Shown here piece after piece: positions 44,294-62,048 of a stretch of 64,000 nt of DNA. The notes beneath the pieces were generated by a model. The model was given only the letters and a program-made list of their open reading frames with translations, was not told the origin of the DNA and searched no databases. Each line of letters begins with the position of its first letter. Position 1 is the stretch's first letter. This DNA comes from Galbibacter sp. BG1 (GTDB lineage: Bacteria > Bacteroidota > Bacteroidia > Flavobacteriales > Flavobacteriaceae). Position numbers and translations under genes: made by a program. Location: positions 62,001 to 126,000 of the forward strand of contig NZ_CP058364.1 in NCBI RefSeq assembly GCF_013391805.1, read 5' to 3'.

Positions 44294-44854
44294 ATGCACG
44301 AAGAGATACAAAATACAATTGAAACACTTAATAGCGGCGGACTCATACTTTACCCAACCGATACAGTGTGGGGAATTGGTTGCGATGCTACCAATCCTGA
44401 GGCCATAAAAAAAGTTTATGAACTTAAAAAAAGAGACGACAGCAAAGCACTTATTTGCTTAGTATCAGATCTTAGGATGCTTCAAAAGTATGTGTATGAG
44501 ATCCCAGATGCCGCTTACGACATCATCGAATTAGCCAGTAAACCTACGACCATAATATACGATCGCCCTATAAATGTGGCTAAAAATCTGGTCGCAGCAG
44601 ATGATACCTTGGCAATTCGGGTAGCTTCTGATGAATTTTGCCAAAAACTTATTCGTCAATTTAAAAGACCAATTGTTTCAACTTCTGCCAATATCAGTGG
44701 GTTACCAACGCCACAGCACTTTTCACAAATATCCGATGAAATTTTAAAAGGTGTCGATTATGTGGTAAATTTGCATCGCGAAAAAACAAATTCAAAACCT
44801 TCTTCCATCATAAAAATTGGAAACGATGCTGTGGTGAAGGTTATTAGAAAGTAA
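44294..44854 (+). CDS. L-threonylcarbamoyladenylate synthase (Sua5/YciO/YrdC family)
   Basis: A 186-residue YrdC-fold protein. GLILYPTDTVWGIGCDA, KKRDDSKAL (ATP/threonine-binding basic residues) and STSANISG are the family motifs. It probably makes threonylcarbamoyl-AMP for the t6A modification of tRNA, though a YciO-type role cannot be excluded from sequence. It follows the glycosyltransferase gene after two bases. A heptad array lies just downstream. Confidence 0.92.
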   Translation: MHEEIQNTIETLNSGGLILYPTDTVWGIGCDATNPEAIKKVYELKKRDDSKALICLVSDLRMLQKYVYEIPDAAYDIIELASKPTTIIYDRPINVAKNLVAADDTLAIRVASDEFCQKLIRQFKRPIVSTSANISGLPTPQHFSQISDEILKGVDYVVNLHREKTNSKPSSIIKIGNDAVVKVIRK

Positions 44855-44858
44855 TTTA

Positions 44859-44900
44859 CAGTTATCAGTAGGCAGTAGGCAGTAGGCAGTAGGCAAAAAT
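44859..44900. repeat. Heptanucleotide tandem array (CAGTAGG)4
   Basis: Six blocks in register: CAGTTAT, four perfect CAGTAGG copies (44866-44893), then CAAAAAT. It lies between the Sua5-family gene and the first four-helix-bundle gene, ending 19 bases before its ATG. Confidence 0.9.
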
Positions 44901-44919
44901 CATATTAAAAATTAAGCGA

Positions 44920-45297
44920 ATGAATTTTAAAGATTTAATTGTGTATCAAAAAGCGTTTTCTCTATCGATGCAAATTTTTGAAATTTCTAAAAAATTCCCC
45001 AAGGAAGAAACCTATTCGCTAACAGACCAAATTAGAAGAAGTTCCAGAAGTGTTTCGGCAAATATTGCAGAAGCTTATAGAAAAAGAGCGTACCCTAAAC
45101 ATTTCTATAGCAAGTTAACCGATTGCGACGCCGAAAACTCCGAAACGCAAGTTTGGTTACAATTTGCATTTGAATGTAAATATCTCACTAAAAAAAGTTT
45201 CGAGGAACTCACCTGCCAAAGCGAAGAAGTTGGTAAACTTTTAAATTATATGCTTTTGAACCCTAAAAAGTTTGGTGTAAAAAGCACTGAACACTGA
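44920..45297 (+). CDS. Four helix bundle protein (23S rRNA-IVP / Avd-like)
   Basis: A 125-residue helical protein of the family originally found in intervening sequences of 23S rRNA and structurally related to the Avd accessory protein of diversity-generating retroelements. Family features are FKDLIVYQKAFSLSMQIFEI, DQIRRSSRSVSANIAEAYRK and a helical C-terminal half. It likely forms a barrel-like pentamer that binds nucleic acid; its role in free-standing form is unknown. The last codons and stop are part of the (CACTGAA)7 array, and a (CAGTAGG)4 array precedes the gene. Confidence 0.9.
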   Translation: MNFKDLIVYQKAFSLSMQIFEISKKFPKEETYSLTDQIRRSSRSVSANIAEAYRKRAYPKHFYSKLTDCDAENSETQVWLQFAFECKYLTKKSFEELTCQSEEVGKLLNYMLLNPKKFGVKSTEH

Positions 45298-45340
45298 ACA
45301 CTGAACACTGAACACTGAACACTGAACACTGAACACTGCA
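45285..45340. repeat. Heptanucleotide tandem array (CACTGAA)7
   Basis: Seven perfect copies of CACTGAA (45285-45333) and one variant CACTGCA (45334-45340). The array starts inside the four-helix-bundle gene, supplying its last codons and stop, and ends 14 bases before the CCA-adding enzyme start. Confidence 0.95.
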
Positions 45341-45354
45341 TAGTAAGATTTTAA

Positions 45355-46788
45355 ATGTCTAAAAAAAACTATCATAAAGCAATTCAAAATCCGATTTTCG
45401 AGGTCATCGCCAAAGCTTCGAAGGATCTACAGGTTAAAAGCTATGTAATAGGCGGTTTTGTGCGCGATTATTTATTGAAAAGAGGAACCCCAAAAGATAT
45501 TGATGTGGTAGCCTTGGGAAGCGGGATCGAACTTGCAAAAAAGGTTGCAGAGGTGTTGCCTAAAAAAACAAAAGTGTCCGTTTTTAAAAATTTTGGCACG
45601 GCTATGCTTCGTTATGAAGACCTTGAAGTGGAATTTGTGGGTGCCAGAAAGGAAAGTTATCATTTTGACAGCAGAAAACCTGTGGTGGAAAATGGGACCT
45701 TGGAAGACGACCAAAACCGAAGGGATTTTACCATCAATGCATTGGCAATTTCCCTGAATGAGAAAAACTACGGGGAATTGCTCGACCCCTTTAATGGAGT
45801 TTCAGATCTTGAGAAAAAGATAATTCGTACCCCTCTCGATCCAGACATCACCTATTCCGATGATCCGTTGAGGATGATGCGTGCCATTCGTTTTGCTTCA
45901 CAATTGAACTTTAGAATTGAAGAGAAATCCCTCGAAGCAATCAAAAAGAACAAAAATCGTATCAAAATCATTTCCAATGAACGAATTGTAGATGAGCTAA
46001 ATAAAATACTGCTGAGTAAAAAACCATCCATTGGTTTTAGTTTGCTTTTTAAAACGGGACTTCTTGAAATTATAATGCCAGAACTTACCAATTTACAAGG
46101 GATTGAGGAAAAGGAAGGGCAAAAACACAAAGATAACTTTTGGCATACCTTAGAAGTAGTCGATAACATCTCCAAAAACACCGATGATCTTTGGTTGCGC
46201 TGGGCTGCGTTATTGCACGATATAGGAAAAGCACCTACCAAAAGGTTTGATGATAAAATTGGATGGACCTTTCACGGACACGAATTTGTAGGCTCCAAAA
46301 TGGTTTATAAACTGTTCAAAAGGCTTCATATGCCCCTTAATGATAAAATGAAATTGGTTCAGAAACTCGTATTAATGAGCTCCCGCCCTATTGTTTTGGC
46401 ACAAGAAATTGTGACAGACTCTGCAGTAAGAAGGCTTATTTTCGATGCTGGGGAGCATGTGGAAGATTTAATGACCTTATGCGAGGCCGACATTACAACC
46501 AAGAACCCAAAACGTTATAAAAAATATAGCAATAATTTTAAGATTGTAAGACAGAAAATAACAGAAGTAGAGGAAAGGGATCAGGTGCGTAATTTTCAAC
46601 CGCCAGTAGATGGCGCAGAAATAATGGAAGTTTTCAATCTCAAGCCTTCAAGGGAAATTGGAGTCATAAAAGAAGCTATTAAAGAAGCCATTCTGGAAGG
46701 GGAAATACCAAATGAACATGATGCCGCTTTCGAGTTTATGCTTAAAAGAGGTAAGAAACTCGGGTTAACACCGGTAAATGAAAAGTAG
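45355..46788 (+). CDS. CCA-adding tRNA nucleotidyltransferase with HD domain
   Basis: A 477-residue class II nucleotidyltransferase that adds or repairs the 3' CCA of tRNA. N-terminal palm with [11 protein letters not shown] and DIDVV metal site, [27 protein letters not shown] neck, and an HD phosphohydrolase domain with [13 protein letters not shown] and the FHGHEFVGS continuation. Length and layout are normal. It follows the four-helix-bundle gene and its array on the same strand. Confidence 0.95.
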
Positions 46789-61615: not shown

Positions 61616-61657
61616 TTTAGAATTTAGAGTTAAGTACAAAGTATTAAGACTATTGAA
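61616..61657. repeat. Degenerate heptad array on the 3' side of the second four-helix-bundle gene
   Basis: Six blocks in seven-base register: TTTAGAA, TTTAGAG, TTAAGTA, CAAAGTA, TTAAGAC, TATTGAA. The last block reaches the stop codon of the gene (61650-61652). Confidence 0.6.
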
Positions 61658-62000
61658 GAGTTTTTTGAAGTGAATAATTCATTTTAGTGACTTCAACAAC
61701 TTCATCAATAATAGGCCGAACATTTCTTTCTGAAATTAGTTTTAATCTTTTCGACAGATATAATTGAGTCAACAATTCAAAAGACGACCCATTAGCAACT
61801 CCTAGGAACTGTCTAAATTCGCCATTGGTATTTCTTCCTGCACCTTCAGAAATATTTGAAGGAATGGCAACAGCACTTCTCCTTATTTGAGAAATGAGCC
61901 CATATTTTTCTTCAACAGGAAATTCGCTGGTTATAGCGTAACATTTCTCAGTTACAACCATCGCCTTTTGCCAAATTTTAAGTTCTTCAAATCTGTGCAT
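61650..62000 (-). CDS. Four helix bundle protein (23S rRNA-IVP / Avd-like)
   Basis: A 116-residue helical protein of the same family as the product of 44920-45297, but clearly divergent from it. Family features: FEELKIWQKAMVVTEKCYAI, SQIRRSAVAIPSNISEGAGR and a helical C-terminus. It sits between the FadB-like gene and the thiolase gene on the same strand, interrupting a beta-oxidation operon. Degenerate heptad arrays abut both ends. It probably is an inserted passenger and not a fatty-acid gene. Confidence 0.9.
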   Translation of the reverse strand: MHRFEELKIWQKAMVVTEKCYAITSEFPVEEKYGLISQIRRSAVAIPSNISEGAGRNTNGEFRQFLGVANGSSFELLTQLYLSKRLKLISERNVRPIIDEVVEVTKMNYSLQKTLQ

Positions 62001-62013
62001 ACCTATAATTTTT

Positions 62014-62048
62014 CTTTGTACTAGATACTTTTTACTTTCTACTGTTCG
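62014..62048. repeat. Degenerate heptad array on the 5' side of the second four-helix-bundle gene
   Basis: Five blocks in seven-base register: CTTTGTA, CTAGATA, CTTTTTA, CTTTCTA, CTGTTCG. It lies 13 bases before the gene's ATG and six bases from the end of the FadB-like gene. Confidence 0.65.

Follow-up and report, generated by a model that had tools for sequence, protein, structure and literature searches.

The window, by which we mean the whole 64-kb stretch of DNA that was analysed, contains a small four-helix-bundle gene bracketed by tandem heptad arrays in the gap between two co-directional genes, tsaC and cca (Table 1). The element formed by the gene and its arrays (44859-45338) is about 480 bp long; its left array starts 4 bases after the tsaC stop codon and its right array ends 16 bases before the cca ATG. 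TRF reports CAGTAGG in 4.3 copies at 44866-44895 (100% match, score 60) and CACTGAA in 7.7 copies at 45285-45338 (100% match, score 108), and these are the two highest scores among the window's 26 rows. The fourth CAGTAGG is separated from the ATG by 26 bases, and the right array covers the last 12 bases of the ORF, providing its final codons and the TGA stop. The TRF and ORF analyses thereby confirm the positions of gene and arrays, the 26-base gap and the shared stop codon as given in a preliminary description of this DNA. The (CAGTAGG)4 of that description is also present as four perfect units, but the array has five, since CAGTTAT at 44859 comes first.

The two arrays had been taken for unrelated units. 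On the opposite strand, however, CACTGAA reads CAGTGTT, so that both arrays are of the type CAGTNNN, inverted and facing each other. The CAGT cores agree between the left and right arrays, the three variable bases mostly differ, and both arrays present an AG every 7 bases that points inward. The growth of the right array to eight units may be explained by slippage. The element thus has the inverted ends of a transposon or miniature element and the terminal inverted repeats of an intervening sequence (IVS). It is located between the TIGR00057 and CCA transferase genes, that is between protein genes, and not in 23S rRNA as the 23S rRNA IVSs are. No mobility enzyme is encoded inside it.

Table 1. 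Features of the two PF05635-family loci in the window, in window coordinates.
Feature	Position	Strand	Description
tsaC (left neighbour)	44294..44854	+	L-threonylcarbamoyladenylate synthase (TIGR00057)
Left end array	44859..44893	+	five CAGTNNN heptads: CAGTTAT (44859) and 4 x CAGTAGG; AG spacing 7, gene-facing
Four-helix-bundle gene	44920..45297	+	125 aa; PF05635 / TIGR02436, 23S rRNA intervening-sequence protein family
Right end array	45286..45338	-	eight units, minus-strand CAGTGTT; AG spacing 7, gene-facing
cca (right neighbour)	45355..46788	+	CCA tRNA nucleotidyltransferase-like gene
Downstream array of second gene	61616..61653	+	five AG units, spacing 7, inverted relative to the upstream array
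Second PF05635-family gene	61650..62000	-	116 aa
Upstream array of second gene	62008..62045	-	five AG units, spacing 7, imperfect repeats

The protein encoded at 44920-45297 scores 113.7 bits against PF05635 (cut-off 33.8) and 104.7 bits against TIGR02436 (cut-off 24), in agreement with its earlier designation as an IVP/Avd-like four-helix-bundle gene. PF05635 is labelled merely as a four-helix bundle protein, and the papers that we found assign it no established function. An AlphaFold2 model of the protein has a pLDDT of 96.1, and the folds nearest to this model are 2rld and 2gsc, followed by 4dwl, the Avd protein of diversity-generating retroelements (bAvd). The protein is therefore predicted to have a four-helix-bundle fold like 2rld and 2gsc. 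Both of these solved relatives have five chains, and the title of the 2gsc paper refers to five four-helix bundles.

Searching both strands of the window for chains of at least five AG dinucleotides at any spacing from 4 to 15 returned four chains, all at spacing 7, and these are exactly the arrays that flank its two PF05635 genes. The imperfect five-unit arrays of the second gene had been missed in the preliminary description. The genome from which the window is taken (3.7 Mb, one contig) has four PF05635 copies, and the AG units number 5+5 at L001, 5+4 at L004 and none at L003. By eye, the L003 copy (L033, at 1305392) lies between sufC and sufD. The subfamily whose proteins start KRFEDLEIW or TKFEDLEIW (L003/L033, L376, L378, L386) apparently has no AG arrays, or has units of a TTTAAA type.

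The pattern CAGTNNNCAGTNNNCAGT has 24 matches in this genome, versus 0 for the reversed control pattern. A four-unit CAGT form was counted by hand in 54 of 149 sampled genomes of the bacterial family; the backward control pattern occurs in 24 of the 149, mostly in low numbers (strongest in G084, 163 vs 19), and is not a clean control because the complement of CAGTCAN contains TGAC. Several CAGTNNN arrays in the window's own genome are remote from family genes (L029, L030, L031 at 3191276-3191456 and L032 in the 3667600 region). In L032 two short arrays point at one another across some 20 bp without any gene, an arrangement that resembles a miniature copy. Two of these remote places are near IS-type transposase genes, as judged by eye.

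The association of gene and arrays was analysed across the family, which is present in 113 of the 149 sampled genomes of the bacterial family and in 193 of 247 of the phylum. The family set comprised 114 PF05635 loci (4 from the own genome, 30 best-scoring and 80 among the matches listed), and the broad set 80 loci of other lineages among the matches listed, with lineage labels taken from record titles and many metagenome bins. Together these form a main set of 194 loci with 388 flanks, or 260 loci with the 66 of a held-out set described below. At the 114 genes, autocorrelation at lags 7, 14, 21 and 28 reached 1.48, 1.37, 1.23 and 1.17 times expectation in upstream noncoding flanks (81 segments) and 1.50, 1.46, 1.43 and 1.21 times in downstream ones (68 segments). 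The lag-7 value was 1.03 in far noncoding DNA of the family loci (27 segments) and 1.04 in noncoding DNA at 29 CCA-transferase loci, our own locus among them (58 segments). These values bear out the period-7 enrichment over other noncoding DNA that had been put forward as a check, and they strongly support the suggested tie between the protein family and local heptad repeats. The broad-set lag-7 values of 1.18-1.22 were obtained from fixed 120-base windows at other loci and are not comparable with 1.48-1.50. Perfect period-7 arrays in the 114 loci numbered 15 within 150 bp of the gene and 2 farther away; the latter, GCCTTTA and GTCATCC, both lie in L125, about 1 kb from the gene.

The flanks of these genes are mirror images of each other. 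Aligned to the reverse complement of the downstream flank, the upstream flank scored at least 24 at 66 of the 114 loci, whereas 8.2 were expected from mismatched pairs. In the broad set such flanks occurred at 41 of 54 Bacteroidota loci (3.1 expected) and at 19 of the 26 with labels of other phyla (1.7 expected), among them Deltaproteobacteria, SAR324, Firmicutes, Acidobacteria and Chloroflexi. Matches in direct orientation were weaker, yet above chance (17 vs 4.6, 114 loci). ParE toxin genes had inverted flanks at 0 of 23 usable loci (30 loci, of which 7 were clipped and left out); for autocorrelation, ParE offered 12 downstream and zero upstream flanks of sufficient length. At the 76 loci with clear arrays, the array edges lie a median of 1 base past the upstream stop codon and 6 bases ahead of the next start codon.

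On the strand pointing inward, the words recurring at lag 7 included AGT, TAG, AAG and GTA, all far above their complements. Chains of 4, 5 and 6 AG units at spacing 7 or 8 numbered 13, 34 and 5 upstream and 13, 23 and 4 downstream in the family set, and 14, 20 and 10 upstream and 11, 29 and 4 downstream in the broad set, counts in which the two spacings may mix and which stand on a chance-chain background of 1-3 units. When the spacing was required to be uniform, chains of 3, 4, 5, 6 and 7 units were found in 52, 43, 100, 25 and 8 of the 388 flanks. A comparison of all 16 dinucleotides gave 42, 99 and 40 chains of 4, 5 and at least 6 units for AG, and 55, 33 and 24 for the runner-up, GT. Across the 260 loci, the counts for 4, 5 and 6 units were 46, 101 and 30 among spacing-7 flanks and 14, 38 and 9 among spacing-8 flanks. 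Since the peak is at five for both spacings, it is the unit count that is kept, and not the array length. Exactly 5+5 units were present at 26 of the 76 loci having both arrays of at least 4, and a clear chain (at least 4) was missing on at least one side at 118 of 194 loci.

The held-out set comprised 66 loci outside the window's bacterial family (29 and 40 loci gathered, 69 in all, minus 3 of the own family), and the criteria were fixed before counting. None of its proteins is identical to any of the 194, and there is one identical pair within the 66. Chains of 4, 5 and 6 AG units numbered 13, 19 and 8 upstream and 4, 20 and 6 downstream, with the opposite strand and the far flanks nearly empty. 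Counted as 4, 5 and at least 6 units, AG gave 17, 39 and 23 (exactly five units, 39 for AG vs 17 for the next dinucleotide), and mirror flanks were found at 44 of the 66 loci against 3.5 expected. The ends of this family are AG units at a spacing of 7, or 8 in other clades, inverted and pointing inward, mostly five per end.

Arrays of this kind might be thought to arise by ordinary polymerase slippage in intergenic DNA, independently of the gene. Each array of the copy at 44859-45338 is nearly homogeneous, as slippage would leave it, and CAGT arrays remote from the gene are common; the 30 with at least 4 units range from 4 to 16 units with no peak at five. At the 260 loci, however, position, orientation, core, count and spacing are all tied to the gene: the nearest 100 bp on its two sides contain 222 inward AG chains of at least five units and 15 outward ones, and the 770 kb of flank farther out contain 61. 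Chains of at least five units also turn up in the controls: the CCA loci have 4 over 122 kb, three of which lie past cca's 3' end in congeners (L098 and L100), the GxxExxY loci 1 over 100 kb, the Avd loci 2 over 42 kb and the ParE loci none over 92 kb. The flank controls refute slippage as a full explanation, and we consider it exceedingly improbable. The peak at five units, in place of free growth, also speaks against the earlier idea that the protein itself makes the repeats.

The arrays vary together with the protein. Spacing was equal on both sides at 75 of 76 loci, and at 29 of 29 in the held-out set. Predicted from the nearest protein at a non-homologous site, the spacing came out right in 101 of 112 cases, where 66 were expected (0 of 5000 permutations); when the nearest neighbour was taken from another phylum the prediction held in only 12 of 16 cases, these being 16 of the 17 classified loci with other-phylum labels. 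Across 5698 non-syntenic pairs, array similarity grew with protein identity (Mantel r 0.19, 0 of 2000). Pairs with similar arrays made up 1-3% below 45% identity, 12% at 50-55% and 25% at 55-65%, and in the same alignment-based test control flanks were similar in 0% of pairs in the identity bins above 50%. The top bin (>65% identity) contains 7 pairs; 3 of these show likeness in the orientation tested, and 2 in the reverse orientation. A test based on 5-mers gave weak co-variation (r 0.056, 8 of 2000). In Flavobacterium (genus of G127), one orthologous site holds the element in many species, and by eye the units there have shifted together on both ends, reading CA[AG]AG in some species, CT[AG]AG in others, mixed in some and GAGTAGCT in two.

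The tsaC-cca junction was compared by eye in seven sampled genomes of the genus. Gene and arrays are present in our own genome; in G150 the gene is decayed and its right array degenerate, and in G151 the gene tail alone is left, with degenerate heptads; in G030 the junction is 42 bp and element-free. The junction holds an intact GxxExxY-like gene in G152, with its own inverted flanks and an upstream CAGT remnant, a decayed one in G153, and an unrelated repeat in G149. Gene and arrays thus occur and decay together at this junction in the genus, as would be required of a unit that is present or absent as a whole. Octad arrays lie just past the cca 3' end in two congeners (L098, 1251-1332 and 1450-1491; L100, 1284-1325); those of L098 face each other about 118 bp apart, at a second insertion point beside cca.

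Facing CAGT arrays 389-469 bp apart enclosed a family gene or fragments of one in 4 of 4 cases, and four further pairs, 1-44 bp apart, enclosed nothing. Reading by eye the 20 genomes without one full-length match at the Flavobacterium site, one of which ended at a contig end, we found other subfamilies, decayed copies, a nested pair and gene-less inverted repeats. In the nested pair (L393, G408), an intact gene with its right array comes first, and beyond it lie the tail of another family gene and one more right array. L374, L375, L388 and L391 have a different, gene-less inverted repeat of the CTCTCCAAAGGAGAGGG type in the gap. At L377, L380, L381, L384, L389 and L390 the gaps are gene-less and about 90-100 bp long, with AAG-type heptads (such as AAGAATCAAGAGCCAAGATTAAAGAC) against a partial complement by eye; it is possible that they are gene-less copies, or terminators derived from them.

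Inverted ends, a hotspot used by different elements and facing arrays without a gene are what one would also expect of a non-autonomous DNA element whose terminal inverted repeats are served by a transposase encoded elsewhere, the gene being a passenger. No direct repeat is enriched outside the arrays, though: the search for a target-site duplication at 76 loci found no excess of shared words there, and the G030 junction, though empty, has diverged too far for an alignment. Nor is the gene a mere passenger, because array spacing and sequence track the protein. We regard this explanation as improbable.

A second possibility follows from the kinship of the protein with Avd, in fold and in sequence, namely that the protein acts like Avd and has its own RNA copied by a reverse transcriptase recruited in trans. 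The genome of the window carries four copies of the family and zero matches to PF00078 on its single contig; a reverse transcriptase in the same genome is not needed. By hand count, 31 of the 38 genomes that have a PF00078 match and 82 of the 111 that have none contain the family, which is no clear enrichment. Two hallmarks of a diversity-generating retroelement are also absent at 44920-45297, where no reverse transcriptase adjoins the gene and the Avd equivalog score of the protein, 42.6 bits, is below the 80-bit cut-off. Conversely, the Avd genes of retroelements, at 13 usable loci of 14 (L470 was not usable), have neither inward arrays nor inverted flanks, the longest inward AG chain being 3 and the top mirror score 21. 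Dependence on a reverse transcriptase was rejected on the lack of a PF00078 match in this genome and of a clear enrichment; the retroelement link of the preliminary description is not supported, and we judge a role as retroelement helper to be very improbable. Immediately before the Avd gene, two of the retroelement loci carry AG chains that point outward, L464 (1422-1455) with 5 units at spacing 8 and L476 (1836-1921) with 13 CAGTTGT units at spacing 7.

With moderate confidence, we propose that gene and arrays make up a selfish element of the IVS type, presumably mobile, the ends of which are about five AG units, probably one for each subunit of a pentamer that would bind them. The earlier suggestion of a minimal mobile or repeat-generating element survives in its first half, mobility being the best reading of the data, and is not supported in its second. 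The element is best explained as a relative of the 23S rRNA IVSs that stands on its own. At the family loci, seven short 23S words detected no 23S rRNA context except for one word in L343.

The proposed mechanism starts from the protein, which would form a ring of five four-helix bundles, like its solved relatives. A single strand, either RNA or single-stranded DNA, would then wrap round the ring with one AG unit on each subunit, and the count may be five at a unit of 7 or 8 nt because there is one AG unit per ring subunit. A ring with a single site on every subunit predicts just such a match of unit and subunit numbers, whatever the unit length. A single strand is the more plausible ligand, since binding sites spaced by 7-8 bp would face different ways round a double helix. 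As the arrays are inverted, each strand would start with one binding array and the protein could mark both ends. Such marking may help enzymes of the host or of other origin to copy or transfer the element, which, lying in sense orientation in operons, would need no promoter for its transcription. This reading of the AG units by a ring can be likened to TRAP, the trp RNA-binding attenuation protein, in which 11 subunits bind 11 (G/U)AG units. The likeness concerns the proposed mechanism only: a ring, one NAG unit of single strand per subunit and a variable spacer. TRAP differs in its unit spacing of about 5 nt, in being regulatory and not a mobile element, and in its fold, which is unrelated to PF05635.

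The gene points the same way as co-directional neighbours in 219 cases against 6 (109:1 in the family set, 62:0 in the broad set and, a weaker bias, 48:5 in the held-out set), with neighbours other or undetermined at 4 of 114, 18 of 80 and 13 of 66 loci. This sense orientation would equally suit regulation or processing at the RNA level, in which the inverted arrays pair to a stem round the gene that RNase III cuts, and the protein, bound to the array on the ATG side, regulates its own translation; the downstream array would be merely the pairing partner of the upstream one. The pentamer reading is in this respect not unique, as RNA-level self-regulation would also use the ATG-adjacent array. 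In the predicted RNA fold of the 44859-45338 element, CAGU pairs with ACUG steps, and according to the accessible part of PMC4990558 the Coxiella IVS has a 28-bp terminal stem that is cut by RNase III, with heptamers before the ATG. The z-score of the fold is just -1.54, however, and 4 of 100 shuffles fold equally well. Differences between arrays that are compatible with G-U pairing are not favoured either (196 compatible vs 270 incompatible), a result that is confounded by the A-rich sense strand and is partly a composition effect. The kinds of broken unit are much alike on the two sides of the gene, and AG is conserved about as well on the strand left out of the gene's transcript. Selection on a sense-RNA stem was rejected on the outcome of the wobble test, opposite to expectation with the caveat of the A-rich strand, and on the likeness of the broken units. 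We consider the RNA-level explanation as a whole unlikely, if far from negligible.

The closest known systems are the 23S rRNA IVSs with an S23p ORF in Coxiella and Leptospira, which have the same protein family and terminal inverted repeats (PMC4990558, as far as its available text goes). The Coxiella IVS has tandem heptamers, GACAGAT and one GACAGAA, directly before the S23p ATG, in a copy number that varies among strains; the available portion of that description mentions neither a five-unit AG rule nor an inverted second array nor a coupling to the protein (PMC4990558). TAACTGA heptamers have been described from Beggiatoaceae, Cyanobacteria and some Bacteroidetes as tandem repeats just before start codons, for which translational regulation was suggested (MacGregor 2015, PMC4679880, in its accessible text). 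Because TAACTGA contains ACTG, it is of the CAGTNNN type, and those arrays, like the right array here, stand just ahead of a start codon. The accessible text of MacGregor 2015 (PMC4679880) contains none of the terms 'four helix', 'intervening' and '23s', and the heptamers are described there without a PF05635 gene. We infer that the TAACTGA heptamers are the same arrays as those found here. Inverted arrays, the number five and the AG core at PF05635 genes are not reported in the titles and abstract openings of the listed papers from the open PMC literature, with subscription papers outside that search; within this scope, we found the end structure of this IVS-type element nowhere described.

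More tentatively, and with a little less than even confidence in the reading as a whole, PF05635 may represent a selfish family, spread over many phyla, that encodes its ends by count, with five AG units per strand spaced 7 or 8 nt and read by its own five-membered ring. The heptamers of Bacteroidota, Cyanobacteria and giant sulfur bacteria would then be ends, remnants and gene-less copies of such elements, the IVSs would be members that landed in rRNA genes, and Avd would be a relative that traded inward arrays for a reverse transcriptase. A unit number equal to the subunit number would give the PF05635 family a concrete, testable predicted binding site. The finding also offers a candidate origin for several unexplained families of heptamer repeats, a new view of the 23S rRNA intervening sequences and a clue to the role of the Avd fold before its use in retroelements.

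GxxExxY genes (PF13366) are likewise flanked by inverted short-unit repeats, at 17 of 30 loci versus 2.6 expected; they are co-directional with their neighbours 25:1 and share the tsaC-cca junction. Their flanks are unlike those of PF05635 genes, with no period 7 (z7>3 in 0 of 33) and no AG chain longer than 4 within 200 bases. At L098, L102 (tsaC-cca) and L204-L233 the units appear by eye to be about 8-10 nt long, which suggests a parallel class of elements.
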